Assembly (NCBI RefSeq): GCF_003053565.1
Contig: NZ_QAXS01000014.1
Location: 1-60,626 of the forward strand
Source of the DNA: Halanaerobium saccharolyticum
Lineage (GTDB): Bacteria; Bacillota; Halanaerobiia; Halanaerobiales; Halanaerobiaceae
Direction of reading: 5' to 3'
Length of the DNA: 60,626 nucleotides
The position numbers and the translations under genes are program-made. The notes under the pieces were generated by a model, which saw only the letters and a list, made by a program, of their open reading frames with translations, was not told the DNA's origin and did not search any database. This document shows positions 14,975 through 60,626 of this stretch, in pieces; the first letter of the stretch is position 1; the number at the start of each line of letters is the position of its first letter.

Positions 14975-16042
<1,068 letters not shown>

Positions 16043-30065: not shown

Positions 30066-30084
30066 AAGAATCTATTCCTCCTTT

Positions 30085-36552: not shown

Positions 36553-36606
36553 AATTTGATTACCTCCGTTTTGTTAGAAATATAAGTTTGAGACATTAAG
36601 AGCAAT

Positions 36607-36682
36607 ATTAATTTAGGTATTAATTTAAGTGTTAAATTAACTCTCTAATTATATTATTCAAGACTAATTAAAAATCTCCTGC
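36607..36682 (-). promoter_or_regulatory. Shared-family promoter, copy A (xylA)
   Basis: The 35-bp repeat block (36607-36641) reads on the plus strand ATTAATTTAG, ATTAATTTAAG, TTAAATTAAC. An AT-rich -10 region and TTCAAGAC follow, then TCCTGC at 36677-36682. The block lies 55 bp upstream of xylA, between the -10 and the start codon. Copies B, C and D are at 40553, 46272 and 56731. Confidence 0.75.
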
Positions 36683-36708
36683 TTTTATTTTTATTTTTTT
36701 GAAATTAA

Positions 36709-37848
36709 TTATGCTGTTTCTTTATTTTTAGTGTAAATATCAACCCAGACAGCTAATATTAAAATTAAACCTTTAATTATTGACTGCCAGAAATTTTCTA
36801 CATTCATTAAACTCATCCCATTATCCAGACTTGCCATAACTATAGCTCCAACTACTGCTCCGCCAACTTTACCAATACCACCTGATAGACTTGCTCCACC
36901 GATAACACAGGCTGCAATTGCATCCAGCTCTGCTCCATCACCAGCGGCAACAGAGGCAGCATTTAAACGAGATGTTAAGAAAATCCCTCCAATTGAAGCC
37001 ATTAATCCATTGATCATAAAAACGACAAGAGTTATTTTTTTAATGTCAATACCTGATAGTTTGGCTGCATCAGCATTACCACCAATTGCATAAATATGAC
37101 GGCCAAAGGTTGTATTATTTGTTATAAAAATAAAGAAAGCTAAAAATACAGTCAGTATTAAAAGTGGAATCGGTATTCCTCGATAAGCATTTAAAACTAG
37201 AATAAATACTACAAGTAAAGAAACGGAAAAGATAATTTTCAAAATTGCCAGATGAAGTGGTAAAACATCAAAATTATATTTCAATCTATTTTTTCTGCTC
37301 CGCCACTGTACAAAGACCAGAAATACCCCAACTACTGCGGCAAAAATTATTCCTACTTCCTGGCTTAAATAGCCCTTACCTAAATAATAGAATAAATCAC
37401 TCATTGGACCAATCGTAGTACCACGAGTAATACCAACTAAAACACCTCTAAAAATCAGTAATCCACCCAGGGTCACAATAAAAGAGGGAACTTTACGATA
37501 GGCAGCCCACCATCCGTTCCAGAGACCGAGAATTAACCCAAGCAGCAGTGTAATTACAATAGATACAATTGGATTCATTCCCTGCCAGACATCCAAAATT
37601 GCCACTACCCCCCCAGCCAGTCCAACAATAGAACCCACTGAAAGATCAATATGGCCCATAATAATAACCATAACCATACCTATAGCTAACATTGAAGTAA
37701 ATACTGACTGTCTAAAAAGGTTTGAAATATTTCTTGGAGTCAAAAATGAACCATCAGTTGTAAAAGAGAAAATTATCCAGATTGATACTAAGGCAATAAT
37801 CATCATATATGTTCTAAGATCAAATTTTATTTTTTTGTTATCAGCCAT
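36709..37848 (-). CDS. xylH: Xylose ABC transporter permease (XylH type)
   Basis: Membrane subunit of a CUT2 sugar importer, 379 aa, with about ten hydrophobic segments. Typical blocks are MVMVIIMGHIDLSVGSIVGL and GGNADAAKLSGIDIKK. ACVIGGASLSGGIGKVGGAVVGA (shown to GGIGKVGG) also fits. The ATG overlaps the xylG stop by eight bases. Together with the ATPase and binding protein it forms a high-affinity pentose uptake system. Ribose- or arabinose-type cargo is possible, but adjacency to xylA and a shared promoter type favour xylose. Confidence 0.92.
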   Translation of the reverse strand: MADNKKIKFDLRTYMMIIALVSIWIIFSFTTDGSFLTPRNISNLFRQSVFTSMLAIGMVMVIIMGHIDLSVGSIVGLAGGVVAILDVWQGMNPIVSIVITLLLGLILGLWNGWWAAYRKVPSFIVTLGGLLIFRGVLVGITRGTTIGPMSDLFYYLGKGYLSQEVGIIFAAVVGVFLVFVQWRSRKNRLKYNFDVLPLHLAILKIIFSVSLLVVFILVLNAYRGIPIPLLILTVFLAFFIFITNNTTFGRHIYAIGGNADAAKLSGIDIKKITLVVFMINGLMASIGGIFLTSRLNAASVAAGDGAELDAIAACVIGGASLSGGIGKVGGAVVGAIVMASLDNGMSLMNVENFWQSIIKGLILILAVWVDIYTKNKETA

Positions 37849-39370
37849 CTATCTTCCCTCCTGTTGCATAAACCATAATTTCTTCCTGACTAATTTCTTT
37901 ATTTCTATTATCAAATTCTTTTGTTATCTCCCCTTCATGCATAACCAGGATCCTATCGCTCATCCCTAATATTTCAGGAAGTTCAGAAGAAATCATAATT
38001 ATTCCCATATTATCTTCAGCAAATTGATTCATTAACTCGTATATTTCCTGTTTGGCTCCGACATCAATACCTCTTGTCGGCTCATCTAGAATTAAAACTT
38101 TTGGAGTTTCCAATAAATTTTTAGCTAAAATAACCTTCTGCTGATTTCCTCCACTTAAATTGATAATCTTTTCATTCAGGGAAGAAGTTTTTATTCTAAG
38201 TTGATCAACTAACTCTGAAGTCTTTACAATTTCCTTATTTTGATCAATAACCAGCTTCTTTTTAAATTTTTCTAAAAAAGATATTGATATATTTTCTTTG
38301 ACACTCATTGGAGGAATAATACCAAATCTTTTTCTATCCTCAGATACAAGGGCTATCCCCTGATGAAGAGCTTCTTTAGGAGAACGAATATCAACCTCTT
38401 TTTCTTTCAGGTATACCTCTCCTTCTTTTTTCCCCTGTAAGTAACCAAATAAAGTGTTGGCAATTTCAGTTCTACCTGCACCAATTAGTCCAAATAAACC
38501 TAAAATTTCTCCTTCAGCTAAATCAAAAGAAATATTCTTTAGAAGCTGATCGCCCTCGTTATTGGTTAAATTTAAATTGTTAACTTTTAAAATTTCCTTA
38601 CCTGCTTTTTTTGTTTTCTTAGGATGCATTTGCTCAATTGAGCGGCCGACCATCATATTAACTACTTCTCTTTCAGTTAGATTTTCCTTCTGATCACCGC
38701 CTATATATTCGCCATCTCTTAAGACTGAAATATAGTCTGCTATCTCAAAAACCTCTTTTAATTTATGAGAAATATAAATACAGGTAACACCTTCGGCTCT
38801 CAAATCTCTTAAAATATCCATTAAGAGCTCAACTTCATTATCTGTAAGAGAAGCAGTTGGCTCGTCAAGAATTAAAAGCTTAGAATTCTTCACCAGTGCT
38901 TTAGCAATTTCTATTAACTGCTGTTTTCCCACTCCTAAATCACCAACTTTAGTTGTTGGCTTGACACCGGCTAATTTAAGTTTTTTTAGCCACTTATTTG
39001 TTTCCTGGTACATCTCATTCCAGTCTACAAATCCTTTATTAGAAATTTCATTTCCCATAAACATATTTTCAGCAACATTTAGTTCTTCAAAAAGAGTCAG
39101 CTCCTGATGAATTACAGCTATTCCATCTCTCTCAGCCTGATGAATGTTTTCAAAACTCTTTTCTTCTCCATTAAAAATTATTTTTCCCTCATAACTTCCG
39201 GTGGGATAAACTCCACTTAAGACTTTAATTAAAGTAGATTTACCGGCACCATTTTCTCCACAGAGGGCATGGATATCATTTTCTTTAACCTTAAAAGAAA
39301 CATTATCTAAAGCCCTAACTCCAGGGAATTCTTTGATTATATCCTGTGTTTCTAAGAGAATTTCTGCCAA
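37841..39370 (-). CDS. xylG: Xylose ABC transporter ATP-binding protein (XylG type)
   Basis: CUT2 ATPase with two fused nucleotide-binding domains, 509 aa. The first has Walker A GENGAGKST, signature LGVGKQQLIEIAKAL and Walker B LLILDEPTASL. The second has a degenerate Walker A (GLIGAGRTE), signature LSGGNQQKVILAKNL and Walker B VLILDEPTRGID, as usual in this family. The frame is open to an ATG at 39427. That ATG lies inside the intercistronic stem-loop, so the TTG at 39370, with AAGGGAG nine bases upstream, is preferred. It lies between the xylF and xylH genes. Confidence 0.93.
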   Translation of the reverse strand: MAEILLETQDIIKEFPGVRALDNVSFKVKENDIHALCGENGAGKSTLIKVLSGVYPTGSYEGKIIFNGEEKSFENIHQAERDGIAVIHQELTLFEELNVAENMFMGNEISNKGFVDWNEMYQETNKWLKKLKLAGVKPTTKVGDLGVGKQQLIEIAKALVKNSKLLILDEPTASLTDNEVELLMDILRDLRAEGVTCIYISHKLKEVFEIADYISVLRDGEYIGGDQKENLTEREVVNMMVGRSIEQMHPKKTKKAGKEILKVNNLNLTNNEGDQLLKNISFDLAEGEILGLFGLIGAGRTEIANTLFGYLQGKKEGEVYLKEKEVDIRSPKEALHQGIALVSEDRKRFGIIPPMSVKENISISFLEKFKKKLVIDQNKEIVKTSELVDQLRIKTSSLNEKIINLSGGNQQKVILAKNLLETPKVLILDEPTRGIDVGAKQEIYELMNQFAEDNMGIIMISSELPEILGMSDRILVMHEGEITKEFDNRNKEISQEEIMVYATGGKIDG

Positions 39371-39398
39371 ATCACTCAACTCCCTTCTTAATGAAAGA

Positions 39399-39418
39399 AA
39401 GGGGCATTTAAGCCCCTT
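39399..39418 (-). terminator. Intercistronic stem-loop between xylF and xylG
   Basis: AAGGGGC (39399-39405) pairs with GCCCCTT (39412-39418) and is followed on the minus strand by TCTTTC. It lies 20 bp after the xylF stop and is a likely partial terminator. Confidence 0.75.
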
Positions 39419-39438
39419 ATTATTCATTTAATTCGTAA

Positions 39439-40473
39439 TTATTGTTCTGGCCATTCTGACTCAGGTACATTTTTGTAGACTTCTTCCATCTCATGGAAGC
39501 CATCTTCAATTACAGTATCCACCATGTTGTCTTTATGAACCTGAATAGGTGTTAATAGAACTGATGGAACATCATATTCACCATTATTAATAGCACCATT
39601 TGTCTCTACTTCTTCACCTTTAGCCATTTTTACAGCTATTTCTGCTCCTCTAGTGGCTAATTTTTGAATTGGTTTGTAAATTGTCATTGTCTGTGTGCCC
39701 TCAACTATTCTCTGGCAGGCAGCAAGGTCTGCATCCTGACCGGAAACTAATACCTCTCCCGCTAAGCCCTGTTCTTCCAGAGCCTGAATTGCTCCACCGG
39801 CAGTACTATCGTTTGAGGCAACAATTACATCAATGTCATTATCATTAGCTGTTAAAGCATTTTCAATAATACCTAATGCTTCCTGTGGTAACCAGTCTTT
39901 TGCCCACTGGTCTCCAACAATTTCAATTTCTCCTTCATCAACATAAGGCTGAATAATATTCATTTGACCTTCTCTGAATAATTTAGCATTATTATCTGTT
40001 GGGGAACCACCTAATAAGAAATATTTACCTGAAGGCTGCTTATCAACTAAGTATTCTGCCTGCAGTTCTCCGACTCGAACATTATCAAAAGAAAGATAAT
40101 AATCAACCTCAGCGTCCATTAACATTCTGTCATAAGCAAGTACAGGTACATCATTAGCATGTGCTTCTCTAACAATACTTCCCATTACTTTACCATTATG
40201 AGGGACAACAACCAGTACGTCAATTCCCTGGGTAATTAAATTTTCTGCCTGTGAAAGCTGAACCATATCATCACCATTGGCTGACTGAACTAATACTTCT
40301 GCTCCCATTTCTTCTGCTCTTTCCACAAAAATATCGCGGTCATGCTGCCATCTCTCTAGTCTAAGATTATCCATTGAAAGACCAATAGTAATACCATCCT
40401 GAGCCATAACACCAAGAGATCCTAAAAACAAAGCAACTACTAATAATGTTGAAATAATGATACTTTTTCGCAT
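39439..40473 (-). CDS. xylF: Periplasmic xylose-binding protein (XylF type)
   Basis: Sugar-binding protein of the CUT2 importer, 344 aa. The signal peptide (1-24) ends GVMAQDG, without a lipobox Cys. LSMDNLRLERWQHDRDIFVE near the N-terminus, the ...NGDDMVQLSQAENLITQGIDVLVVVPHNG block and GQDADLAACQRIVEGTQTMTIYKP (shown to CQRIVEG) closely match XylF. GGGGGAG precedes the ATG. It is the first gene of xylFGH and is driven by promoter copy B. Confidence 0.95.
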   Translation of the reverse strand: MRKSIIISTLLVVALFLGSLGVMAQDGITIGLSMDNLRLERWQHDRDIFVERAEEMGAEVLVQSANGDDMVQLSQAENLITQGIDVLVVVPHNGKVMGSIVREAHANDVPVLAYDRMLMDAEVDYYLSFDNVRVGELQAEYLVDKQPSGKYFLLGGSPTDNNAKLFREGQMNIIQPYVDEGEIEIVGDQWAKDWLPQEALGIIENALTANDNDIDVIVASNDSTAGGAIQALEEQGLAGEVLVSGQDADLAACQRIVEGTQTMTIYKPIQKLATRGAEIAVKMAKGEEVETNGAINNGEYDVPSVLLTPIQVHKDNMVDTVIEDGFHEMEEVYKNVPESEWPEQ

Positions 40474-40689: not shown

Positions 40690-43041
40690 TTAGCTGACTT
40701 CAACCTCAGTAAAGTAACTTCTCTCTGCTGTCAATTCTACCTTATCTCCTTTTAACTCAATTAGATCTTCAAGGCGGATATCAGTGGAAGAACTGCCGAG
40801 CATAATCTCAAACTCTCCCGGCTCAACAACAAGATTCATATCCTTATCATAAAATGCCAGCTGTTCAGCTTTTAATTTAAATTCAACAGTTTTGCTCTCT
40901 CCTGCCTTGAGCTCAACTCGCTTAAAGCCTTTGAGAGATTTGATTGGTCTGGTTAGAGAAGCAATTTTATCGTGAATATAAAGCTGCACTACCTCTGCTC
41001 CAGCAAGCTGGCCAGTATTTTTAATGTCTGCCTTAATTGAAATTGTTTTATTCCCTGCAAATTCTTTGGGGCTGATCTCCAGATTTGAATACTCAAAGTC
41101 TGTATAACTTAAGCCGAAACCAAATGGATATAGAGGTCTGTTACCTGTAAATACATAATCACGATAATGTGACATATGGCGTCGGTTATAATGAATAGGA
41201 GTCTGACCTACATTTTTAGGGATTGAAACTGGCAGTTTTCCAGCCGGATTATAGTCTCCAAATAGTACATCTGCTACCCCGTTTCCACCTTCTTCTCCCG
41301 GTAACCAGGCTTCTAAGATTGCATCTGCATTTTCTGCGGTCCATTCAATTGATAGAGGGCGGCCATTGACAAGCACAACCACAACTGGAGTTCCCGTTTT
41401 AACAATTTCCTTGATTAATTCTTTTTGAACTCCCGGCAGATCCAGAGATGTGCGGTCATGGTGTTCTCCAGTAGTATCAGTTGTATTCTGAAGTTCACTT
41501 AAGAAGGCTCCACCTTCAAAATCTACCACATCATCATCACTGTTTTCATTTTCTCCCATACCTGAAAGTCCTGATTTACCGCCAACAACAACCAGAGCAA
41601 CCTCTGATTCTTTAGCAGCCATAACTGCTTCAGCAAAACCTTCCTTACTGCTGTCCATGATGCCACAGCCATAGGCGTAATTTATTTGTGTCTGATCTGA
41701 AATCTTAGCTTTGATTCCATCTAGAATGCTGATAACTTCTACTGCATCTTCTTTGCTGTCCACATGAGCACTGTAGGCATAGTCACCAAGCAGATTACGG
41801 GTGCTGTCTGCAGAAGGACCAATTACAGCCAGTGAGGAAAGTTCTTTAACTAAAGGCAGTAAATCATTTTCATTTTTAAGCAAAACCATAGATTTTCTGG
41901 CTGATTCTCGGGCCAGCTCTCTCTGTTCATCAGTCTCAAAAAGATCGGCAATTTTATCGAGATCAACGTAACGCTGATCAAAAGCATTGACCTTAAATTT
42001 GTAGCGGAGATGTCTTCTTACTCCCTGGTCAATAACGGCTTCAGAAATCAGTCCATCATTTACTGCATCAACTAATTCCTGTCCGTAGCATTCAGTTTCC
42101 GGCAGCTCGATATCAAGCCCTGCTTCTAGAGCTTTAATTCCTGCTTCCTGCATTGAGCGGGCAACCTTATGTTCATTATGCAGCATCTTAATACTCCAGT
42201 AATCAGAAACTACAACCCCGTCAAAACCCCATTCTCCTCGTAAAATATCTGTTAATAATTTTCTGGAAGAAGCACAGGGGATTCCATCGATATCATGGTA
42301 GGCATTCATTACTGAACCGGCTCCCGCAGTTTTAATTGCGGCTTCAAAAGGGAATAGGAAGCTTTCTCTAAGTTCTCTTTCCGAAAGATTTACCGGAGCA
42401 TGGTTGCGACCACCCTCAGAATAGCTGTGGCCGGCAAAATGTTTAAGTGTTGCCACAATACCTTCTGATAGTTTATCTCCCTGCAGGCCTTTAACATAAG
42501 AAGTCACCATTTCTGCTGCCAGATAGGGATCTTCACCAAAAGTCTCTTCTACTCTACCCCAGCGTAAATCTCTTGCTACATCTGCAACAGGTGATAGTGC
42601 CAGGTGAGCTCCGATTGAGCGCAGCTGTTTTCTGATTACATCAGTCTGTCTTTCCAGTAGTTCCGGTTCCCAGGAACTGGCAACTCCAATTGATTGAGGA
42701 AAAGTTGTTCCACCTTTACCCATATAGCCGCTCAAACATTCTTCGTGGACAATTGCTGGAATTCCAAGCCGGGTATTTTCTGCGATATATTTCTGCATCT
42801 TATTTGCCGCTTCAGCTGCAGCTTCTGGTTCTAAAGCACTGGCTCCGGCAATTCTTGTGATCTGTCCGATACCATTTTTTAGGTATTTAGCCGCCTTTGC
42901 CTCTGAAAACTTTCCGTTTTCTAAAATTTTGTCAGGTCCAATTGATCCCAGCTGCGCTACTTTTTCTTCTAAAGTCATTTCTGCTAATAATTTATCTACT
43001 TTTTCTTCTAATGAATAATTATCTAAATTTAATTCCGTCAT
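40690..43041 (-). CDS. Glycoside hydrolase family 3 beta-glycosidase (beta-xylosidase/beta-glucosidase)
   Basis: A 783-residue cytoplasmic GH3 enzyme distinct from the one at 10539. The N-terminal barrel has TRLGIPAIVHEECLSG, DLRWGRVEETFGEDPYL and KHFAGHSYSEGG. The nucleophile is expected at Asp280 in GVVVSDYWS. The alpha/beta sandwich and a C-terminal fibronectin-like domain with FGFGLSYTDFEYS follow. The block EECLSGYMGKGGTTFPQ resembles xylosidase/glucosidase members such as XynB- and BglX-type enzymes. It lies 39 bp after the malG-type permease gene and is probably the last gene of that transporter operon. It therefore likely hydrolyses the oligosaccharide imported by it. Confidence 0.9.
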   Translation of the reverse strand: MTELNLDNYSLEEKVDKLLAEMTLEEKVAQLGSIGPDKILENGKFSEAKAAKYLKNGIGQITRIAGASALEPEAAAEAANKMQKYIAENTRLGIPAIVHEECLSGYMGKGGTTFPQSIGVASSWEPELLERQTDVIRKQLRSIGAHLALSPVADVARDLRWGRVEETFGEDPYLAAEMVTSYVKGLQGDKLSEGIVATLKHFAGHSYSEGGRNHAPVNLSERELRESFLFPFEAAIKTAGAGSVMNAYHDIDGIPCASSRKLLTDILRGEWGFDGVVVSDYWSIKMLHNEHKVARSMQEAGIKALEAGLDIELPETECYGQELVDAVNDGLISEAVIDQGVRRHLRYKFKVNAFDQRYVDLDKIADLFETDEQRELARESARKSMVLLKNENDLLPLVKELSSLAVIGPSADSTRNLLGDYAYSAHVDSKEDAVEVISILDGIKAKISDQTQINYAYGCGIMDSSKEGFAEAVMAAKESEVALVVVGGKSGLSGMGENENSDDDVVDFEGGAFLSELQNTTDTTGEHHDRTSLDLPGVQKELIKEIVKTGTPVVVVLVNGRPLSIEWTAENADAILEAWLPGEEGGNGVADVLFGDYNPAGKLPVSIPKNVGQTPIHYNRRHMSHYRDYVFTGNRPLYPFGFGLSYTDFEYSNLEISPKEFAGNKTISIKADIKNTGQLAGAEVVQLYIHDKIASLTRPIKSLKGFKRVELKAGESKTVEFKLKAEQLAFYDKDMNLVVEPGEFEIMLGSSSTDIRLEDLIELKGDKVELTAERSYFTEVEVS

Positions 43042-43080: not shown

Positions 43081-43908
43081 TTATCCCTTTAAGGCTCCAG
43101 CTGTCATTCCTTTAATAATATGCTCCTGCAGGAATACATAGAGCAAAATCAGTGGTAAAACTGAAAGAAATAAAGCAGTTAGGGTTAAGGGAATATTGAT
43201 TCCGTGCTGGCCCTGGAATTCAAATAAGCCGAGGGTCAAAATCCTTTTACTCGGACTTGAGGTTAAAACTAAGGCATAGGCAAACTGGTTCCAGAGCAAA
43301 GTTAAATTGTAAATAGCAACTGTAGCAATTGCCGGTTTAACAAGTGGTAAAATAATATCTCTAAAAATTCTAAACCTGCTGGCTCCATCTATAATTGCCG
43401 CTTCTTCCAGCTCATAAGGAATATCATTGATAAATCCTGTCAGAATAAAAACTGAAATCGGAAGGCTGAAGGCAACATAGGGGCCAATTAAAGCTGAGAG
43501 TCTGTCATATAATCCCATCGAAAGTGTTAATTTATAGATAGGAATCAAAGTTGAATGAATTGGGATCATCATCCCGGCCAGAAATAAGATATAGACAATT
43601 TTATTAAACTTAAAGTCTATTCTAGAAATCGCATAACTTGCCAGGGCAGAAACAATAATGATAATTGCAACTGAGATGAAACAGACAATAATACTGTTAA
43701 TAAAATACATATAAAAACCTGATTCCATTACCTCAATGTAATTTTGAAAAGTAAAGCTTTCCGGTAAAGACCAGACTGGATTTCTAAAAAACTCCATTCT
43801 GATTTTAAAACTATTCTGAACCAAAAAGACCAGCGGATAGCCAGTTATCAGCAGCCAAATCAATAAAAATAAATAAATAACCAACTGTTTTAATTTATTA
43901 ATCATCAT
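43081..43908 (-). CDS. Sugar ABC transporter permease (MalG/AraQ type)
   Basis: CUT1 membrane subunit, 275 aa, six helices. The EAA loop reads EEAAIIDGASRFRIFRDIILP (shown to RIFRD). The C-terminus EHIIKGMTAGALKG is typical of MalG-like proteins. It overlaps nothing but lies only seven bp after the partner permease. It is read between that gene and GH3. Confidence 0.92.
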   Translation of the reverse strand: MMINKLKQLVIYLFLLIWLLITGYPLVFLVQNSFKIRMEFFRNPVWSLPESFTFQNYIEVMESGFYMYFINSIIVCFISVAIIIIVSALASYAISRIDFKFNKIVYILFLAGMMIPIHSTLIPIYKLTLSMGLYDRLSALIGPYVAFSLPISVFILTGFINDIPYELEEAAIIDGASRFRIFRDIILPLVKPAIATVAIYNLTLLWNQFAYALVLTSSPSKRILTLGLFEFQGQHGINIPLTLTALFLSVLPLILLYVFLQEHIIKGMTAGALKG

Positions 43909-43915
43909 CTCTCAC

Positions 43916-44806
43916 CTAATTCCTGACATCTTTTTTGCTGAAATTCAAAAATACAACTGATACTATAAGTGCAACTAAAAATAGTGCCACAGAGATTGTA
44001 CTTCCATAGCCCATATTCATTTCTGTAAACGATTTTGTGTAAAGATAAGTGGCCATTAATTCGGAGGCATGATTTGGTCCCCCACCTGTTAGAGCAAAGA
44101 TCATAGCAAAATATTTAAGTGAACCAACTATTATTAAAACCGAAGCATTAACAACTGTTGAGCGCAGCATCGGCAGAGTAACATAGAAAAATGACTGCCA
44201 GTTATTAGCTCCATCAATCTCTGCTGCTTCATAAAGCTGTTTAGGAATATTAGAAATAGCGGCCATAAAAATAATCATATATAGTGGAATAAATCGCCAC
44301 TGAATCGGGGCTGAAGCTGAATAAAAAGCTATATTGGAATCTCCAAGCCAGCTTCTGGTCAGCTGTTCTAAGCCGACTAAATTTAAAAAGCCATTAATTA
44401 AACCAAAAGTTGGGTCATACATATAGCGCCAGAGAAAGGCTACAGCAATTGATGATAACAACATAGGAACAAAAAATATTGTTTTGAAAAAATTAGCTCC
44501 TTTAATTTTTCTGGTCAAAAGTACTGCTAAAAATAATGCAATCGGAATCTGAACTACCAGAGAAATCAGCACTAACTTAAAGTTATTTGCCATCGAAGAC
44601 CAGAATATTGGATCACTCAATAATTTTGACCAGTTTTCAAGGCCTAAAAATTCCATTGCTCCTATACCATCCCACTTAAAAAAGGAATAATAAGTTGAGA
44701 GTGGAATCGGAATAATTAAGTAAACTAAAGAAAAAATAACTGCCGGCAGTAAAAACAAAGCTGCAATAAAATATTTATTATTCATTAATTCTTTTTTATT
44801 CATCAT
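43916..44806 (-). CDS. Sugar ABC transporter permease (MalF/UgpA type)
   Basis: CUT1 membrane subunit, 296 aa, six helices. The EAA loop reads YEAAEIDGANNWQSFFYVTLP (shown to WQSFF). The N-terminal FLLPAVIFSLVYLIIPIPLS and the block ALTGGGPNHASELMATYLYT are typical. It is the middle gene of the operon and follows the binding-protein gene after a stem-loop. Confidence 0.92.
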   Translation of the reverse strand: MMNKKELMNNKYFIAALFLLPAVIFSLVYLIIPIPLSTYYSFFKWDGIGAMEFLGLENWSKLLSDPIFWSSMANNFKLVLISLVVQIPIALFLAVLLTRKIKGANFFKTIFFVPMLLSSIAVAFLWRYMYDPTFGLINGFLNLVGLEQLTRSWLGDSNIAFYSASAPIQWRFIPLYMIIFMAAISNIPKQLYEAAEIDGANNWQSFFYVTLPMLRSTVVNASVLIIVGSLKYFAMIFALTGGGPNHASELMATYLYTKSFTEMNMGYGSTISVALFLVALIVSVVFLNFSKKDVRN

Positions 44807-44869: not shown

Positions 44870-46147
44870 TTATTCACCATAATATTCTTGAGCTGCTTCT
44901 TCCATCTGATTAGCTGCTTCTTCTGGTGTCATCTCCATACCAAATAAAGCCTGAGTTGTATTTAAATGAACCTGGGCAATTTCCAGCGGCAGTGTCTGAT
45001 CATACCAGAGCTGAATATGATTTGCTTCCTGACTGGAGTTATAAATTTTCTCCATGATTGGATCGTCAATCTTTTCTGATATACCTGTAAATGGAGGAAT
45101 ATTACCGATATTAATTAATTCTTCACCCATTTTAGCATCAGTTAAATACTTTAAGAACTCAACAGCAACCTCTTTGTTTCCTGCTTTTGTAGAAACTGAA
45201 TAATAGTTATCTCCCGGTGTACCAACTAAGTTAGAAGGATCGCCTTTTCCAGATTCAACTTCAGGAAAGTTAAAGAAACTAAACTGATCTAACATATCAG
45301 GAGCTTCATTTTTAAAGGAAGAATAAGCCCAGCTTCCCATTAGATACATTGCTGCCCGGTCAGTATATAATAATGTTCTGGACTGACCTGCATCTTCATC
45401 CAAACCATTAACACCATCAGGGAAGGCACCCATTTCTACTAATTCCTGAATTCTTCTACCTGCTTCAATAAATGCTTCATCATTAAATGAACCTTCTCTG
45501 CTGATTGCCTGCTGCAGAGCTTCTGGTCCACCAATTCTATCTGCTAGATACATAAAGTACATTGAACCTGTCCATTTGTTTTTATTAGCTAAAGCAAAAG
45601 GTGTAATTCCATTGTCGGTAAATGTTTTGACAACATTTTTCAAGTCTTCATATGTTTCTGGGACTTCAAGACCGTATTCTTCAAATAAGTCAGTTCTGTA
45701 CCAGACAAGTGCAGGAGAAACATTTGTTACTGGAACACCATACATCTCTCCATCTACTCGGCCTAAGTCCATAGCTGCTGGCATAAAGTTGCTTTCCCAG
45801 TCTTCAGTCATATGTGATTCTAAAGAATAAACCTTATCTGCATCAACATATCTTTCCAGGCTGGCACTACCCCAGGTCATAAATAGATCTGGTGCATTAT
45901 CAGCTGACATGGCTGTTCTCAGCTTAGTTTTGTAATTATCATTTTGAGTTGGAACATGCTCAATATTTACATTTGGATTATCAGCTTCAAATCTTTCGAT
46001 AGCATTCTCTAAAGCTGGAGTAACCTGGTCAGAAGCAGTACGAATATCCCATAAAGTTAAATTAACCTCATCCTGAGCCATAACTGTAACTGAAAATAAA
46101 GAAATGACCATTAATAAAGCAAGTGATAAAATTGAAAATTTCTTCAT
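44870..46147 (-). CDS. Periplasmic sugar-binding protein (MalE/UgpB type)
   Basis: CUT1 solute-binding protein, 425 aa from the ATG at 46147. That start is preferred over an upstream ATG at 46207 because AAGGGAGG precedes it and a normal signal peptide then begins the protein. The signal ends SVTVMAQDE without a lipobox Cys. The body has SBP_bac_1 features (MSADNAPDLFMTWG, YGVPVTNVSPALVWYRTDLF, AAMYLMGSWAYSSF). It is driven by promoter copy C. The linked GH3 suggests xylobiose or another short beta-linked oligomer as ligand. Confidence 0.93.
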   Translation of the reverse strand: MKKFSILSLALLMVISLFSVTVMAQDEVNLTLWDIRTASDQVTPALENAIERFEADNPNVNIEHVPTQNDNYKTKLRTAMSADNAPDLFMTWGSASLERYVDADKVYSLESHMTEDWESNFMPAAMDLGRVDGEMYGVPVTNVSPALVWYRTDLFEEYGLEVPETYEDLKNVVKTFTDNGITPFALANKNKWTGSMYFMYLADRIGGPEALQQAISREGSFNDEAFIEAGRRIQELVEMGAFPDGVNGLDEDAGQSRTLLYTDRAAMYLMGSWAYSSFKNEAPDMLDQFSFFNFPEVESGKGDPSNLVGTPGDNYYSVSTKAGNKEVAVEFLKYLTDAKMGEELINIGNIPPFTGISEKIDDPIMEKIYNSSQEANHIQLWYDQTLPLEIAQVHLNTTQALFGMEMTPEEAANQMEEAAQEYYGE

Positions 46148-46271
46148 AAAATTATTCCTCCCTTTTAATTTTAAATCAAGACTTTTCAACCTAACTTGAA
46201 ATTTCAAACAAAGAAAGTACTTTTTGCTGATCCCTCCTTTTTAATTATTTTAAACAAAAGACAAAATTTTC

Positions 46272-46385: not shown

Positions 46386-46419
46386 AAGAAAAAACCACCT
46401 TTTTTCTGGTGGTTTTTTC
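46386..46419 (-). terminator. Rho-independent terminator after the aldolase gene
   Basis: AAAACCACC and GGTGGTTTT form a stem followed on the minus strand by TTCTTTTTT. It lies 22 bp after the stop of the 46441 gene and ends the GH43-to-aldolase transcript. Confidence 0.85.
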
Positions 46420-46440
46420 TATAAATAGATTATTTTATAT

Positions 46441-47331
46441 TTATTTAACTTTTTCTAGTATTTTTTTAATATTGATTATCTGTTCATCTGTCAGCAGACC
46501 AACCGGCTCTTTGCAGACTGCATTTAAATTGCTGCCGCTGAGAGAAACTGCCTTTTTAATTGCCGGGAAAAAGGGATCAGAAATACTGTAGATATCCATC
46601 ATTAGATTGATTTTATTGACTAATTCTTTTATTTTATTAAAATCTCCTTTTTGATAAGAGCTGTAAAAATCTGAAAATAGTCCAGGAGCTACATTAGATA
46701 ATCCACCGATTAAACCATCTCCTCCATTCAATAAATTAGGCAGAAAATATTCATCAAATCCAGAATAGACAGCAAAATCTTTTTCCAGTGGCTTTTTCAC
46801 TTGTTGAATTAGTTCTCTGGTGTGGCTGATTGTATCCATTGTATCTTTAATTCCCACAATATTTTCGTAGTCCCGGGCCAGCTCAAAAACTGTTTCCGGA
46901 GAAATATTAACTCCACTCCGGGCCGGAAAATTATAAATATAGAGATCTAGATCTGTATTCTGAGCAATATGGCTGTAGTAATTATAAAGAGTCTGCTGAT
47001 TAAACTGAAAGAAATAGGGAGTAATTACAGCTGCCCCATCTGCTCCTTCAGCGCCAGCAAAATTAGTTAATTCTATTACATCCTCTGCAGCTGTTCCTCC
47101 AGTACCAACTAAAACCGGCACTCGCTTGTTTACAGTTTTTACAGCAAAAGAAATCAGTTTCTTTTTTTCTGCTGAAGTCATGGCGAAAAACTCTCCAATA
47201 CTGCCTAAAAATAAAATGCCATTTACTCCCGCCTCTATTAATTTTTCTATATGTTCTTCTGTAGTCTTAAAATCAATCTTCTGATCCTGATCAAAGACTG
47301 TAATCGTTGGGGTAATTATTCCTTTAATCAA
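46441..47331 (-). CDS. DHDPS-family aldolase, probably for a 2-keto-3-deoxy sugar acid
   Basis: A class I aldolase of the DapA/N-acetylneuraminate lyase family, 296 aa. It has the expected Tyr in LYIYNFPARSG and Schiff-base Lys in GIKDTMD. GSIGEFFAMTSAEK replaces the GTTGE-type loop of true DapA enzymes. It starts at TTG, with GGAGGA upstream. It follows an IlvD/Edd dehydratase by 27 bp in an operon with GH120 and GH43 xylosidases. That pairing is typical of non-phosphorylative sugar-acid routes in which a keto-deoxy acid is split to pyruvate and an aldehyde. Xylonate or arabinonate is the likely parent acid, but substrate is inferred. Lysine biosynthesis is less likely here. Confidence 0.8.
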   Translation of the reverse strand: MIKGIITPTITVFDQDQKIDFKTTEEHIEKLIEAGVNGILFLGSIGEFFAMTSAEKKKLISFAVKTVNKRVPVLVGTGGTAAEDVIELTNFAGAEGADGAAVITPYFFQFNQQTLYNYYSHIAQNTDLDLYIYNFPARSGVNISPETVFELARDYENIVGIKDTMDTISHTRELIQQVKKPLEKDFAVYSGFDEYFLPNLLNGGDGLIGGLSNVAPGLFSDFYSSYQKGDFNKIKELVNKINLMMDIYSISDPFFPAIKKAVSLSGSNLNAVCKEPVGLLTDEQIINIKKILEKVK

Positions 47332-47358
47332 TTTTATCCTCCTCAGATTTTCAAATTA

Positions 47359-49113
47359 CTATTTTATACTATTATTTATTAATTCAGTTAAATATTCGGT
47401 GTCAATATAGGCACCCTTCATGGGAGAGGCAGCAAGCTGGCTGAAAATACCCAGGGCACCATTTAGAAAGTTTGGCTCTGGTTTTTCCCACTCTTTAGAG
47501 CGCTCTTTTAAAATCTGCTTAATTTCTTCTTCACTCTTTTCTTTACCATCAACACCAACTATATTTAGACCTCTTTTTTCTATATTAATTTCTATTAAGT
47601 CGTTTTCTTTAACTAAAGCAATTGGTCCTCCGGAGGCAGCTTCTGGTGAAACATGGCCAATTGCTGGTCCGCGGGTAGCACCAGAAAATCTGCCGTCAGT
47701 TATTAGAGCGGTAGTTTTATTTAATTTTGGGTCAGAAGCGATAGCCTCTGTTGTATAATACATCTCCGGCATTCCAGTACCTTTGGGGCCTTCATAACGG
47801 ATAATTACAGCATCACCGGAAACTATATCTCCATTTAATACAGCTTCCATTGCTTCTTCTTCCCTGTCAAAGACTCGGGCTCGGCCAACAAAGTTTTTCA
47901 TTTCCTCAGGTAGAGCTGAATGCTTGACCACTGAACCTTCTGGAGCCAGATTACCTTTTAGAATTGCAATCGCTCCCTGAGCATTAATTGGAGAATCAAC
48001 CGGAAAAATCACTTTTTCTTCTGCTGGCATAAGATTCGGTTTGACTTCCATTCCTTTGAGGTAAGAAAAGTTGTTTAATTCATTTAAATTTTCACCAAGA
48101 GTTTTTCCTGTAATTGTTAAAACATCAAGGTGAAGCTGATCTTTAATTCTTTTCATAATTTCTGGCACCGCACCTGCATACCAAAAATACTGAGTTGGAT
48201 AATCTCCACTCGGAATTGTATTCACCAAAAATGGAACTTTACGGTTAATCTCATCAAATAAGTTGCCGTCAATTTCTATTCCCAGTTCATGAGCAAAAGC
48301 CGGCAGATGCAGCAGCGCATTGCTCGAGCCGCCTATGGCAGCATGAACTGTAATTGCATTTTCAATTGACTCTTTAGTTACTATATCTTTAACTTTAAGA
48401 TCGTTTTTTACAGCTTCAGTTAAATATGAGGAGGCTAGCTCGGTCATTTCTTTTAAGTAGGAACCATTGGCAGGAATTAAAGCCGCCCCGGGTAATGCCA
48501 GACCAAGCGCCTCAGCCATAACCTGCATTGTAGAAGCTGTACCCATAAACTGACAGGCTCCACAGGATGGACAGGCCAGCTTTTGAGTTTCTAAATATTT
48601 TTCTTTGCTGATTTCTCCTCTTTTATATTTCGCATAATCACTGGCTGTCATATCGACAGTAGTATTTTTCTTACCCAGAGCCATTGAGCCACCTGGTACA
48701 TGAACTGTCGGCAAATTCAATCTGGCTGCTGCCAGTAAATGAGCTGGAATTGCCTTATCACAGGCTGAGATCATCAGCATGCCGTCATAAGGGGCGGCTT
48801 TCGCCTGAACTTCTACCATATTTGCAATCATTTCTCTGGAAACCAGAGAATAATTCATTCCATCATGCCCCTGGGCAATCCCATCACAGATGTCACTGAC
48901 TATCATTGAAGCCCCTTTTGCTCCCTCATTTTTTAAACTCTGCAGGGCCTGCTCAACCAGTTGATCAAGGTGAAAACTACCTGGATGACCGTAACCATAA
49001 GTACTGCTGACTAAAATTTGAGACTTAGCTAAATCATCTTCTTCCCAGTCCATCCCCATTTTTAAAGCGTCAAGTTCAGGACTACTTTTGCGTATTTTTT
49101 GACTTTTAAGCAT
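47359..49113 (-). CDS. IlvD/Edd-family dehydratase, probably sugar-acid (xylonate/arabinonate) dehydratase
   Basis: An Fe-S dehydratase of 584 aa. Cluster-binding cysteines appear in ISACDKAIP and LACPSCGACQFMGTASTM. The family C-terminal block ALITDGRFSGATRGPAIGHVSPEA (shown to TRGP) is present. The same superfamily holds dihydroxy-acid dehydratase (IlvD), phosphogluconate dehydratase (Edd) and pentonate dehydratases. The length and linkage to a DHDPS-type aldolase and pentosidases favour a pentonate enzyme. Its ATG overlaps the GH120 stop by one base (TAATG), so the two are translationally coupled. No sugar dehydrogenase that would make the acid is in this window. Confidence 0.82.
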   Translation of the reverse strand: MLKSQKIRKSSPELDALKMGMDWEEDDLAKSQILVSSTYGYGHPGSFHLDQLVEQALQSLKNEGAKGASMIVSDICDGIAQGHDGMNYSLVSREMIANMVEVQAKAAPYDGMLMISACDKAIPAHLLAAARLNLPTVHVPGGSMALGKKNTTVDMTASDYAKYKRGEISKEKYLETQKLACPSCGACQFMGTASTMQVMAEALGLALPGAALIPANGSYLKEMTELASSYLTEAVKNDLKVKDIVTKESIENAITVHAAIGGSSNALLHLPAFAHELGIEIDGNLFDEINRKVPFLVNTIPSGDYPTQYFWYAGAVPEIMKRIKDQLHLDVLTITGKTLGENLNELNNFSYLKGMEVKPNLMPAEEKVIFPVDSPINAQGAIAILKGNLAPEGSVVKHSALPEEMKNFVGRARVFDREEEAMEAVLNGDIVSGDAVIIRYEGPKGTGMPEMYYTTEAIASDPKLNKTTALITDGRFSGATRGPAIGHVSPEAASGGPIALVKENDLIEINIEKRGLNIVGVDGKEKSEEEIKQILKERSKEWEKPEPNFLNGALGIFSQLAASPMKGAYIDTEYLTELINNSIK

Positions 49114-51083
49114 TAAGATCTCTCCCAGACTTTAATCTTATTTATTCCCTTTTTAAACTTCATTAAAGGACCAACTGGACTCTCAGCAGCAATAGTTTCT
49201 CCAAGATAATCTTGATTAATCTTTAAACTGCTGCCATCTTTATTTTCAAAGTCAGCATCAGCCAGTCTAACTTTAGCCAGACTTTCTGTACTCTGAACTT
49301 GAGATTTCATTTCAGTAAATTCTTCCGGGAGCTTACAGTTTAAATAAACCTGACCATCCTCTTCTTCCAGCTTCAATTCCGGATCAAAATTATCCAGTAA
49401 TACATTATTCTCTTCTCTCTCAAAAGGAAGTGCTCCATTTAAATAAACATTATTATTTATATAAACGGGCTGCTTGGTATCCATAAATATTTCCACATCT
49501 CCTGGTTTTTGATGAACTTTTTCAAAATATTCTTCTAAGGAAGTCGGAGAGCTGTCAAAATGAGCAGTTCCTACACCTTCTTTAGAATCATTTTCCCCGG
49601 TTATAATACCATTACTATCATCCAGACCTATAAATAGATTATTATAAAAACGATCATCTCCACCTAGAATTACAGTAAATCCTTTAATTTTAGTACTGTG
49701 GGGCTGATGATAAGGTGTTGAGCGCTTTAAGACTTTCCTCTGCACCATTTTGCCTGCTATTAAGTTATTAACATAGGCTCCACCCTGAGAAAAGTTATCC
49801 AGTGCGTAATCAGAAGCCAGAATATTATTGTCAACAATATAAGGTCCGTGGCTGACTTCAATAAATAAATCGCGGTTGTTATTATAATAAAGGTTGCTGC
49901 TGATTCTGGTTCCCTGGGTCTGCCAGTCCATCCAGGTACCTAAGGAGCAGTCATGAATTCGGTTATCATGAATTTCTACATCAATAGGTGCATGCAGCTT
50001 GATTCCGGCAATTTCATGACCATAGAATTCTCTTTTTAAAGCAATATTATAGATATGGTTGTTGTAGATTTCACTAAAAATACAGCCTAAATGCCCAACA
50101 ACTCCATTCTGACCACTATCATGAATGTTATTATTTCTGATAATATGAGACCCAATATTATCTTTATTCCAGCCGTAATCTTCTGCTTCAAAAACTGATT
50201 CAATCTGATATTTATAACCTGGTTTATCCTGTCTTTTACTGCGGAAATTATCTCCAGTTGCTGCAGTTTTACCAATACTAACTGCACTGCATTTTGCATC
50301 GTGGATATCATTGTCTTCAATAATCCAACCTTTACTCCAGTTAGGACCAATTAAACCTGGTTGATCTGCTGTTGGAGGTGTCCAGGGAGTAGCTGCCTGA
50401 GCCATCTCAAAACCTTTAACAGTAATATAATCAATACCAGTTGTTTCAGGATAAAAGCAGGCTTTGCGGAAATTTATCTCAACTAACTCCTCAGTTGGAT
50501 CAGCCTGATGAAAGTTAGCATAAATAGTTGTTTTTTCGTCGCCAACTTCTACATACCAGAGATATTTTGTCTGTTCAGGGTTTCTAACTGCACCAATTTC
50601 TCCAGTCCAGTCATCTTTAATTTCAGTTTTAACTTCTGGATCAACTAATTTATCATATGAATCGACTTCGTAAAAAGACATTCCATTTAGGTAAACATCT
50701 CCTAAGTGTTTAGTTTCCTGACCACCAGTATGGATCAGCCAGTCACCAAAAATTTCTTCCTGATAGGGATTATAGTCACCGAAAATTTGATTATCAATTT
50801 CAGTTTTCCAGATTGAAGCTTCAACATTTTCCCAGTCTTTAATTCTTTCCGAGCCTTTAATCACAACTTTCTCATTTTCGGCCGCTTGATAAGTAATCCT
50901 TCTCTTATCACTTAAACCTCTATTTTGTGGCTTAACCCATTCTCTGTATGTACCCTCATGAACAACAACTGTATCTCCAGCCTGTGCAATTTGTGCAGCC
51001 TTATTAATTGTTAAAAATGGCTCTTCTTTAGTTCCTTGATTAAAATCTGACCCTTTTTTTGAAACATGATATTTCCTATTCAT
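49113..51083 (-). CDS. Beta-xylosidase, glycoside hydrolase family 120
   Basis: A 656-residue right-handed parallel beta-helix protein with an inserted beta-sandwich (about 85-215). It begins YHVSKKGSDFNQGTKEEPF and shows the repeated NNxIHD/NN.IYN turns of the helix. Asp386 in TWMDWQTQ and Glu409 in LFIEVSHG are 23 residues apart. This spacing equals that of the nucleophile Asp382 and acid/base Glu405 reported for the Thermoanaerobacterium GH120 enzyme XylC, which is the main reason for this family call. No signal peptide is present, so it acts on imported xylo-oligosaccharides. It is read after GH43 and coupled to the dehydratase gene. Confidence 0.88.
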   Translation of the reverse strand: MNRKYHVSKKGSDFNQGTKEEPFLTINKAAQIAQAGDTVVVHEGTYREWVKPQNRGLSDKRRITYQAAENEKVVIKGSERIKDWENVEASIWKTEIDNQIFGDYNPYQEEIFGDWLIHTGGQETKHLGDVYLNGMSFYEVDSYDKLVDPEVKTEIKDDWTGEIGAVRNPEQTKYLWYVEVGDEKTTIYANFHQADPTEELVEINFRKACFYPETTGIDYITVKGFEMAQAATPWTPPTADQPGLIGPNWSKGWIIEDNDIHDAKCSAVSIGKTAATGDNFRSKRQDKPGYKYQIESVFEAEDYGWNKDNIGSHIIRNNNIHDSGQNGVVGHLGCIFSEIYNNHIYNIALKREFYGHEIAGIKLHAPIDVEIHDNRIHDCSLGTWMDWQTQGTRISSNLYYNNNRDLFIEVSHGPYIVDNNILASDYALDNFSQGGAYVNNLIAGKMVQRKVLKRSTPYHQPHSTKIKGFTVILGGDDRFYNNLFIGLDDSNGIITGENDSKEGVGTAHFDSSPTSLEEYFEKVHQKPGDVEIFMDTKQPVYINNNVYLNGALPFEREENNVLLDNFDPELKLEEEDGQVYLNCKLPEEFTEMKSQVQSTESLAKVRLADADFENKDGSSLKINQDYLGETIAAESPVGPLMKFKKGINKIKVWERS

Positions 51084-51151: not shown

Positions 51152-52570
51152 TTATGGCAGCAGAGTAAACGAAGCTAAACTGGCACTTCCTTCTCCTCTA
51201 TAGGTAAAATATAAAGGCTTTACTCCATCTGGAATTTCAATATCTGTTGAATATTCCTGCCAGATATTCGAAAATCCAACCGGTATTTCTGCTAAAACTT
51301 CCCCATCCCAGGCTGTCTTAACTTCAAACCTGCCGCTGCAGTAGCCACGAACTTTAATTTTAACTTGATTGATATTATTAAACTCAAAATATTTAAAACC
51401 AGCTGTTGCAGAGTCTTTCATATTCTGAATATAACCTGTCTCTTTATCTCCATCTTTACCGTCCTGAGTTATTTTAGGAAACTGTTTATCCATCCAGGCT
51501 CCGGTAAAATCTGTATAAACTGATTCTTCATCAGTAAATAAATTACAGGCAAGATAGGCTGGATATTCTCCCACCCCAATTAACGGATTATCTTTTGAAC
51601 CAGTAGAAGTAATCTCTACCTGGGGAATTTTCCCCTCGTCTGTAAATTTAATTTTTTCCAGACAGGCCTGACGGCTGAAATTAGTCCCGTTGGTATGTCG
51701 GTGATAAAAGATATACCACTGATTATTTATTTCAACAATGCTGACGTGATTATTTCCGCCATAATACATTGGTTTAGAAGCTGCTTTATAACTGTCAATA
51801 CCAATATCAGCATTGCTGACAATAGTTCCCTGATATTCAAAACCTTCGGTTGGCTTCTTGCTCGTAGCATAGCATAATTCATGCATTAAAATTGAAGAAT
51901 AAATTAAATAATATGTATCTCCTCTTTTTCTAATCGATGGAGCTTCAAAAAATTCATGACCTTCAAAGCCTGTTCCTTCACTATAAGGTTCACTTGGGAT
52001 TACAAAATTAGGTTCTTCAATTATTGTCAGCATATCCGAATCTAAAACTGTGGCCATCGCTCCATTTCTTGATTTATCACCTTTCTGACAGAAGCCGGTA
52101 TACAAATATGTTTTCTCACCTTCATTAATTACACCTGGATCAAATTGAGGCTGGTCTTCCTCTTTTTCGCCCAGACGCGTACCATCTGCATAATGTACAT
52201 ATCCATAAAACTCAAATTTTCCAGCTGGGGTATCAGAAACAGCCACCGAGACTATAGATAGCTTATCAAGAACATAGTAAAGGTAATAGCGACCATCAGG
52301 TCCAACAGTCACATCCGGAGCATACAGGCACATACTGGCATCCGGATTAAGTGGATCACCTGTTTTTTTGAAAATTTCTCCTTCATAACGCCAGTCCGAA
52401 AGATCATCAACAGGTGCTGACCAACATACATAATCATTTAAGCAATAAGCATGACCATTAAAGCGGTCATGAGAACCATAAATATATACTCTATCATTAA
52501 AAACATACGGTTCCGCATCAGGGATATACTCCCATGATGGTAAATATGGATTCAATTGTTGTTTTTTCAT
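51152..52570 (-). CDS. Glycoside hydrolase family 43 (beta-xylosidase/arabinofuranosidase) with CBM6-like domain
   Basis: A 472-residue cytoplasmic enzyme. The five-bladed propeller (about 1-315) has catalytic-type residues Asp in PDAEPYVF, Asp in YAPDVTVG and Glu in GHEFFEAPS. The C-terminal part (about 340-472) is a beta-sandwich resembling CBM6 (KDSATAGFKYFEF, VRGYCSGRFEVKTAWDG). It removes xylose or arabinofuranose from imported oligosaccharides; which one cannot be settled from sequence. It is the first gene of the GH43-GH120-dehydratase-aldolase operon. The IS1182-type element begins 173 bp upstream, so its promoter region may have been altered. Confidence 0.92.
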   Translation of the reverse strand: MKKQQLNPYLPSWEYIPDAEPYVFNDRVYIYGSHDRFNGHAYCLNDYVCWSAPVDDLSDWRYEGEIFKKTGDPLNPDASMCLYAPDVTVGPDGRYYLYYVLDKLSIVSVAVSDTPAGKFEFYGYVHYADGTRLGEKEEDQPQFDPGVINEGEKTYLYTGFCQKGDKSRNGAMATVLDSDMLTIIEEPNFVIPSEPYSEGTGFEGHEFFEAPSIRKRGDTYYLIYSSILMHELCYATSKKPTEGFEYQGTIVSNADIGIDSYKAASKPMYYGGNNHVSIVEINNQWYIFYHRHTNGTNFSRQACLEKIKFTDEGKIPQVEITSTGSKDNPLIGVGEYPAYLACNLFTDEESVYTDFTGAWMDKQFPKITQDGKDGDKETGYIQNMKDSATAGFKYFEFNNINQVKIKVRGYCSGRFEVKTAWDGEVLAEIPVGFSNIWQEYSTDIEIPDGVKPLYFTYRGEGSASLASFTLLP

Positions 52571-60118: not shown

Positions 60119-60626
60119 CTAATTTAGCCGAGAAAGCCCCGCTTATGCTAATGGGCGGGGATGAATCGGCTAATTTATAGTTGAAAAAGCTTTTTCTTTG
60201 TTGAACATTTGTTCTTTCAATGGTATAATATACTTAGTAATAAAGTTTTTTGCATCGGCTTAAAATATCATTGATATTAATAATTATTGAAAAAGGTGTT
60301 TGATATGCAATTAACATATGTGCTGGAGTTATTAAAACTAACTAAAAGAAAAGAAAATATATTCTTAAATAATATTGCTGAAGTAGTTAAGAATCGTCAG
60401 GCTGTCGCTACCAAGCTTAAAACAGGAGAAACTAAATTGAGTTCTGCTGACTTTAAGGATATAAACCTCCCTGCACTGAGCCTTCATTATAAACGCAAGG
60501 TCGGCCCAGCACTAGGTCATCGAGACCGTCGCTGCTGTTAAAAATCAGAATATTAGAGAAGTTAAAGCACTTTATAAACAGTTTTTAAAGTCTAACTCTA
60601 AAAAAGAAAATATAGAGTTCAAAGCT
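60119..60626 (+). mobile_element. IS200/IS605-type element, left part
   Basis: Sequence homologous to the kinase stops after TTAC (60115-60118), a target known for IS608-type elements. A large imperfect hairpin follows: AGCCGA/TCGGCT outside and CCCCGC/GCGGGG inside (about 60126-60175). This resembles the structured left ends recognised by single-strand transposases. A TnpB-like reading frame follows on the plus strand and the window ends within it. Confidence 0.65.
60305..60626 (+). pseudogene. TnpB-like (IS605 OrfB) gene, 5' part, frame-disrupted
   Basis: The ATG at 60305 follows AAGGTG. It opens a frame with the typical TnpB beginning (MQLTYVLELLKLTKRKENIF ... LSSADFKDINLPA), which ends at 60541. 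A TnpB-like continuation (VIETVAAVKNQNIREVKAL...) appears in another frame from about 60513 to the window end. Between them is a stretch of about 40 bases, richer in G and C than its surroundings, that breaks the protein. The gene is cut by the window edge, so its length, RuvC residues and any guide RNA at its 3' end cannot be judged. Confidence 0.6.

Follow-up and report, generated by a model that had tools for sequence, protein, structure and literature searches.

The DNA analysed here, called the window throughout, spans positions 1 to 60,626 of contig NZ_QAXS01000014.1 (RefSeq assembly GCF_003053565.1) of Halanaerobium saccharolyticum. It is a xylan-utilisation locus, the minus strand of which carries in a row genes for two glycoside hydrolases (GH) of families GH43 and GH120, for a dehydratase of the IlvD/Edd family (hereafter DHT) and for an aldolase of the DHDPS family (ALD). 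The original prediction had recognised the last three of these genes, with DHT overlapping the GH120 gene by one base and the aldolase gene next, and the open reading frames and Pfam agree with it [Table 1]; the GH43 gene belongs with them, and the four form one minus-strand unit. DHT and ALD would together provide a non-phosphorylative sugar-acid branch attached to xylan digestion, with D-xylonate as the first-choice substrate, a reading to which we give a probability of roughly 0.5.

The frames of GH120, DHT and ALD encode 656, 584 and 296 amino acids, respectively, that of ALD beginning with TTG. GH43 and GH120 are 68 bases apart, the stop codon of GH120 and the start codon of DHT have a single A in common (TTAATG), and 27 bases separate DHT from ALD, with ribosome-binding-like motifs just upstream of DHT (GGGAGAG) and upstream of ALD (AGGAGG). 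The GH120 product tests as a member of its family by virtue of the PF21258 insertion domain and of its match to a solved xylosidase, 3vst, which we take to be a GH120 structure. GH120 and GH43 are presumed to be cytoplasmic, no signal sequence having been seen in either upon inspection by eye. A hairpin lies downstream of ALD. Between 43000 and 54500 (11.5 kb) there are 12 terminator-like sites (shuffled sequences yield 7.4 +/- 2.5), of which this hairpin is the longest, and none of 200 shuffles folded as stably. This hairpin is the likely end of the transcript, and because of its strength the ATP-binding cassette (ABC) transporter, GH3, XylF/G/H and xylose isomerase genes beyond it probably begin a new one. 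A promoter scan was uninformative (38 sites versus 41.5 expected).

Table 1 Features of the window discussed in the text, with the matches on which their assignment rests.
Feature	Position	Strand	Evidence
Intrinsic-terminator-like hairpin 3′ of ALD	46387..46420	-	13-pair stem and T tail; -19.2 kcal/mol, z -5.1
ALD, predicted YagE-like DHDPS-family 2-keto-3-deoxy-aldonate aldolase	46441..47331	-	Pfam DHDPS 252.5 bits
DHT, predicted IlvD/Edd-family sugar-acid dehydratase	47359..49113	-	Pfam ILVD_EDD_N 358.8 and ILV_EDD_C 209.1 bits
GH120 beta-xylosidase	49113..51083	-	PF21258 insertion domain 154.2 bits; 3vst E 3e-299
GH43 arabinofuranosidase/xylosidase	51152..52570	-	PF04616 91.6 bits; 9no3 E 2.6e-131
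ABC substrate-binding protein, xylo-oligosaccharide (XOS) type, beyond the hairpin	44870..46207	-	SBP_bac_1; 4g68 E 8.6e-65; XOS-binding protein 3zkk E 6.8e-53
Two ABC permeases, same transporter as the binding protein	43081..44806	-	Cluster with frames 29166-31008, which are BPD_transp_1
GH3, xylosidase/arabinosidase type	40690..43041	-	PF00933 281.5 bits; same order in 4/4 genomes
Xylose ABC transporter (XylF/G/H type) and xylose isomerase	35233..40473	-	NCBIfam xylF 454.6 and xylose isomerase 742.1 bits, both above cut-off
GH67	12840-14933		
UxuA	14975-16042		

Separation from amino-acid biosynthesis

The original prediction would have fallen had DHT been the only dihydroxy-acid dehydratase of the genome. 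Three IlvD/Edd genes were found in this genome (3.2 Mb, 98.7% complete), namely DHT, a paralogue on contig C1 and a copy on contig C12. The latter adjoins ilvB (acetolactate synthase), ilvC (ketol-acid reductoisomerase), leuA and leuC, and is thus the second ilvD beside leucine and valine genes whose existence the prediction had proposed to check; DHT as the sole dihydroxy-acid dehydratase is thereby ruled out. Against the IlvD model NF002068 (cut-off 644) the C12 copy scored 834 bits and DHT 549.6; against TIGR00110 (cut-off 618.15) the scores were 785.7 and 530.5, respectively. Motifs were compared across 108 aligned sequences, with identical copies counted. At two sites where both IlvDs in the set read GPKGGPGM and C(A/S)GMFTANS, DHT reads GPKGTGM and CQFMGTAST; the E. 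coli proteins YagF, YjhG and Edd resembled DHT at the first of these sites, and YagF and YjhG at the second. The CDG motif does not discriminate, as it is present too in the genome's true IlvD. Judged by curated cut-offs, motifs and the tree described below, DHT is not a dihydroxy-acid dehydratase.

Similarly, a separate dapA lies on contig C17 between lysA-type decarboxylase and dapB genes, which rules out ALD as the housekeeping DapA. ALD is devoid of lysine-gene context and reads GSIGEF and PYFF where the C17 copy reads GTTGES and PYYN; the GTTGES loop and the PYYN tyrosine are presumably functional residues of DapA. It is therefore very improbable that DHT and ALD merely duplicate IlvD and DapA and lie here by chance: although ALD narrowly passes the DapA model TIGR00674 (212.2 versus 206.15) and the top NCBIfam models of DHT are IlvD ones, both biosynthetic genes reside elsewhere in fitting operons, DHT falls below the IlvD cut-offs, the motifs of both proteins differ from those of IlvD and DapA, and the two are kept as a pair across genomes.

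Relatives of the aldolase and the dehydratase

Solved relatives of both proteins were found by sequence at E < 1e-58. The best solved match of ALD was E. coli YagE (E 3.5e-59; best DapA, E 8e-47), to which it is 37% identical, compared to 31% for the genome's DapA. ALD contains GIKDTMDTISHTR and shares with YagE and YjhH the pattern GIKDTxDxxxHxR, the lysine of which we take to be the Schiff-base lysine, together with YNFP and GEF. Both its nearest solved relative and this pattern place ALD with the YagE/YjhH aldolases.

DHT aligned over almost its full length with E. coli YagF (35% identity, 315 bits) and, like enzymes of the YjhG/YagF type, shares an operon with a YagE-type aldolase gene, which here lies directly downstream. 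It harbors the Cys-Asp-Lys motif (SACDKAIP) and the serine region (DGRFSGAT) of the IlvD/Edd superfamily. An equivalent of Cys60, given for the [2Fe-2S] pentonate dehydratases in PMC5770437, is missing from DHT (HPGSFHL) and present as a cysteine in the three solved dihydroxy-acid dehydratases aligned. YagF and YjhG are likewise devoid of this cysteine, so that its loss does not exclude xylonate. The five-carbon dehydratases compared in PMC5770437 act, according to that paper, on both D-xylonate and L-arabinonate with differing preference, and the GH43 enzyme of the window is nearest an arabinofuranosidase/xylosidase. The pair could thus serve L-arabinonate, or another five-carbon acid of arabinoxylan side chains, instead of D-xylonate; with DHT scoring 343.4 bits against the L-arabinonate dehydratase model NF009559, far below the cut-off of 882, we hold this to be improbable.

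A scan of genome contigs returned 168 relatives of DHT, and among the best 80 the closest named ones came from Halanaerobium strains. Close relatives were not found on plasmids or phages: 857 plasmid and 26 phage records match, all at less than 60% identity. Neighbours within 5.5 kb were then counted for 103 DHT rows, duplicates included. A GntP-type permease was found in 32 rows, 2-keto-3-deoxygluconate (KDG) kinase in 26, 2-keto-3-deoxy-6-phosphogluconate (KDPG) aldolase in 23 and a DHDPS-family aldolase in 14, the last figure being made up of four Halanaerobium pairs and three other pairs of the order, the majority retrieved twice, plus a Lachnospiraceae locus that enters the count with two genes. 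A quick tree was built from 73 of 103 distinct rows (rows having at least one recognised neighbour, reference rows and three others); only the placement inside the family was used, since the reference rows have very long branches. DHT fell in a nine-row Halanaerobiales branch (SH-aLRT 100) within a 67-row family of aldonate dehydratases (98). Seven of the nine rows are linked to an ALD-type gene, in place of permease, KDG kinase or KDPG aldolase neighbours; the other two (L136 and L137, both from genome G032) have no recognised neighbour. Together with row L140 and an eight-row clade containing the C1 paralogue (63% identical to DHT), this branch formed an 18-row group (SH-aLRT 100). The locus of the paralogue (L005 3077-11569, G000:C1) comprises genes for a galactonate dehydratase, a nickel-dependent putative hexonate epimerase, a TRAP transporter, the DHT paralogue itself and a glycerol-dehydrogenase-like protein.

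These neighbourhoods raise the possibility that the substrate is a six-carbon aldonate (D-gluconate or one of its epimers), which the pair would break down to pyruvate and glyceraldehyde through an Entner-Doudoroff-like route without phosphorylation; the site of the pair in the xylan locus would then reflect the fact that plant biomass brings both kinds of acid. Beyond the permease, kinase and KDPG aldolase counts and the company kept by the neighbouring clade, a 44% identical relative of ALD resides in a galactonate-type locus. On the other hand, the genome already has the hexonate-type C1 paralogue as well as, on contig C23, a KDPG aldolase that passes its model and KDG-kinase-like genes that do not (236 bits for a cut-off of 400 and 552 for one of 700), and the pair lies inside xylan genes in all four Halanaerobium genomes that have it. 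A hexonate substrate, which keeps its share of the odds because the usual neighbours of the family are of the six-carbon kind, is accordingly a minority possibility.

Residues setting the ALD-linked enzymes apart were sought by comparing the seven ALD-linked rows with 44 rows having permease, KDG kinase or KDPG aldolase neighbours. Two distant rows (L065 3794 and L148 7644) had been left out beforehand, and L065 8001, counted among the 44, has an aldolase nearby as well. In this comparison, made without a chance control, 18 columns were uniform in the seven DHTs and held a single different residue in 85% or more of the 44 rows. Among these columns K148, V153, D154, T156 and A157 form a cluster, and differ from the eight paralogue rows too. 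From its position in the sequence, we infer that stretch 148-157 corresponds to the helix-loop-helix lid described in PMC5770437. The four xylan-locus enzymes furthermore carry a longer C-terminal tail (TEYLTELINNSIK in the DHT of the window) that aligns with the corresponding end of the E. coli xylonate dehydratases, YagF included; no such tail was seen in the other relatives listed, one frame of which (L030) runs into unrelated sequence. In the pentonate enzymes, the active site is reported to be shaped by the C terminus and by an N-terminal helix that the partner chain contributes (PMC5770437).

Conservation across genomes

The DHT-ALD pair was present in four of the 12 genomes of the genus Halanaerobium, and in all four the order DHT-ALD-binding protein-permease-permease-GH3-XylF was kept (DHT at least 82% identical). 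GH67 occurs in five of the 12, among them all four with the pair, where it lies on the same contig; G011 has GH67 but not the pair. The association with GH120, found in three of the 12, was looser. The coupling to a xylosidase on which the original prediction had laid stress exists in the window genome and in G001, the only other genome among those read to show the one-base overlap, and was overstated beyond these two of the four pair genomes: an ABC transporter separates GH120 from the dehydratase in G005, and G004 yielded no GH120 match. GH120 was hence rejected as a conserved partner of DHT. Outside the genus, three order-level genomes (G022, G031 and G037) have DHT-ALD without xylan genes in the 15.0, 11.7 and 5.7 kb stretches read, respectively, a GntR/FCD regulator gene preceding the pair in G031. 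Given these genomes and the variable GH120 link, what has lasted is the pairing of dehydratase with aldolase; a connection of this pair with xylan genes was seen in Halanaerobium only.

The same genomes bear on a further possibility, that ALD handles 2-keto-3-deoxygluconate released from glucuronate side chains by way of GH67 and UxuA, DHT being a side activity of that route. Both genes lie in the window, and YagE is annotated as a 2-dehydro-3-deoxygluconate aldolase. UxuA, however, would already make the intermediate, which would render DHT redundant; the three order-level genomes have DHT-ALD with neither GH67 nor UxuA in the stretch read (one contig measuring only 5.7 kb); and the genome has KDPG aldolase and KDG-kinase-like genes. 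We consider this route doubtful at best.

Other arrangements came to light in the survey. Genomes G011 (L179 4488-9338) and G004 (L180 4340-9225) harbor a second, different pairing, in which an IlvD-like gene (the G011 copy passes the IlvD cut-off) is joined by a DHDPS-family gene 37% identical to ALD; the two are separated by a gene for a 419-residue protein, the G011 copy of which was scanned and gave no NCBIfam match. An Alistipes contig (L031) with relatives of GH120 and of the dehydratase was rejected as an operon, the two genes being on opposite strands with other genes between. In G001, a response regulator gene lies directly upstream of GH43. In the window, an ISL3-family transposase gene (54908-56113) and a transposase-like frame (52921-53871, identified by eye) separate the response regulator from GH43, and the sensor-kinase gene at 58557-60152, beside the AraC-type response regulator gene (56889-58502), has an in-frame stop at 59547-59549. 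The window has no match to the first 85 residues of the 616-residue relative of this kinase in G001. Owing to this stop and these unmatched residues, the two-component system of the locus may be partly inactive here. The remaining genes of the window encode GH8, GH10, an esterase, an oligopeptide-type ABC transporter, UxuA, GH67 and a second GH3.

The proposed pathway and its substrate

The pair is real, conserved and probably catabolic. At the level of reaction class, dehydration of an aldonate by DHT is highly likely, and retro-aldol cleavage by ALD to pyruvate and an aldehyde is nearly as likely; the odds that the acid is D-xylonate are about even. DHT would remove water from C2/C3 of the aldonate, most likely converting D-xylonate to 2-keto-3-deoxy-xylonate, which ALD would cleave to pyruvate and glycolaldehyde, the latter then being reduced or oxidised by an enzyme coded elsewhere. 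As had been predicted, a sugar-acid dehydratase and a 2-keto-3-deoxy-acid aldolase would thus stand alongside the isomerase route, represented by XylA at 35233-36552 (TIGR02630, 742 bits; cut-off 533).

A five-carbon substrate is argued for indirectly, by the location among xylan genes, by the presence of a dedicated aldolase despite the C23 genes, and by the residue and tail differences of the branch. Since KDPG aldolase and KDG-kinase-like genes exist on C23, a dedicated aldolase that works without phosphorylation is most readily understood for an acid to which the KDPG/KDG-kinase route is closed, such as a five-carbon one.

Several observations weigh against D-xylonate. The wider DHT family keeps company with genes of six-carbon chemistry, namely those for gluconate-type permease, KDG kinase, KDPG aldolase and galactonate dehydratase. 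DHT reached only 353.3 bits against the YjhG/YagF D-xylonate dehydratase model TIGR03432 (cut-off 808.15), in addition to its shortfall against the L-arabinonate model. Neither a xylonate dehydrogenase nor an aldonate-specific transporter was recognised in the window, where family scans covered 34 of the 46 frames of at least 100 amino acids; the genome was not searched for them. Apart from its narrow pass at the DapA model, ALD keeps the DapA arginine (PARSG) that is missing from YagE and YjhH. Its 44% relative, in G004, adjoins a galactonate dehydratase and a KDG-kinase-like gene, which indicates that aldolases of this type are not confined to five-carbon acids. The residue comparison, lacking a chance control, passed 18 columns from which five adjacent ones were singled out, and the order-level pairs stand without xylan genes in the stretches read. 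What holds of the predicted catabolism of xylonate or arabinonate is therefore sugar-acid catabolism at a xylan locus; the identity of the acid as xylonate does not follow, in view of the six-carbon family context and the unreached cut-offs of both models. The PARSG arginine is also kept in the other aligned aldolases of the branch of ALD, and may indicate that the substrate carries a charged group distally.

The acid might reach the cell in free form. A more attractive possibility here is that it forms the reducing end of oxidised xylo-oligosaccharides, which would be imported by an ABC transporter and trimmed inside the cell by GH43, GH120 and GH3. The original prediction had derived such aldonic-terminated oligosaccharides from the lack of a sugar dehydrogenase. 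That lack was confirmed for the window frames scanned, except for one possible candidate, an aldo/keto reductase (25335-26279), and does not extend to the whole genome, which was not searched for sugar dehydrogenases as such: on C23 (L155 6081-9285, G000), genes for a 2-hydroxyacid dehydrogenase, an iron-type alcohol dehydrogenase and the genome's one SMP-30/gluconolactonase stand in a row. This row is a possible, putative aldonate-making cluster, unlinked to the unit of the window. Nor does a missing dehydrogenase demand aldonic oligosaccharides, because E. coli, as described in PMC13279387, possesses the pathway except for xylose dehydrogenase; by analogy, E. coli would be precedent enough for the use of environmental xylonate. 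Xylonate-ended oligosaccharides are nonetheless a possible food, since a fungal oxidoreductase oxidises xylo-oligosaccharides to aldonic acids (PMC9730589). It is conceivable, if rather unlikely in its entirety, that this anaerobe eats oxidised xylan ends made by others, importing and trimming xylonate-ended oligosaccharides and splitting the xylonate, without phosphorylation, by means of a gluconate-dehydratase lineage re-tasked to five-carbon acids.

Should D-xylonate be the substrate, xylan use in halophilic anaerobes would have a second outlet besides isomerase and xylulose, possibly aimed at the oxidised chain ends left by fungal oxidases. The IlvD/Edd family would include a change of substrate from hexonate to pentonate, which purified enzymes would allow to be tested directly, and genes likely annotated ilvD and dapA in such loci would be misnamed.

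Comparison with known systems

Among the matches listed in open-licence PubMed Central papers, none dealt, by title or start of abstract, with an IlvD/DHDPS pair in a Halanaerobium xylan locus. The Caulobacter and Rhizobium [2Fe-2S] pentonate dehydratases CcXyDHT and RlArDHT (PMC5770437) belong to the same protein family as DHT and share the Cys-Asp-Lys motif and the catalytic serine region; DHT differs in having no cysteine at the place of Cys60, as judged on other aligned dehydratases and not on CcXyDHT itself. In clostridia, an IlvD-like gene of the CA_C3604 type beside a gluconate symporter gene is a predicted gluconate dehydratase according to PMC4179846. DHT falls in a family where such a neighbourhood is common, the likeness being one of neighbourhood and not of alignment with CA_C3604, whereas its own branch has a YagE-like aldolase and is devoid of permease, KDG kinase and KDPG aldolase neighbours. 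The Salmonella xynABC xylonate operon, likened here by description, has an aldolase and a dehydratase said to be homologous to YagE and YagF and a putative glycerol dehydrogenase nearby, but the word xylosidase appears nowhere in the text of PMC12445098.

Close to the unit of the window is also the D-xylonate operon yagE-yagF-yagG-yagH of the CP4-6 prophage of E. coli K-12, in which a DHDPS-family aldolase, an IlvD/Edd dehydratase, a putative uptake gene and a putative xylosidase/arabinosidase stand in a row. YagF is only 35% identical to DHT, YagH is not detectably similar to the GH43 enzyme of the window (best E 0.19), the E. coli operon has no GH120, and the Halanaerobium unit, in contrast, sits in a xylan locus with ABC transporters. 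The view that coupling to a xylosidase would be unusual is weakened by this operon: E. coli is already known to have a comparable set of genes, xylosidase included, and the Halanaerobium unit is a new version of a known arrangement.

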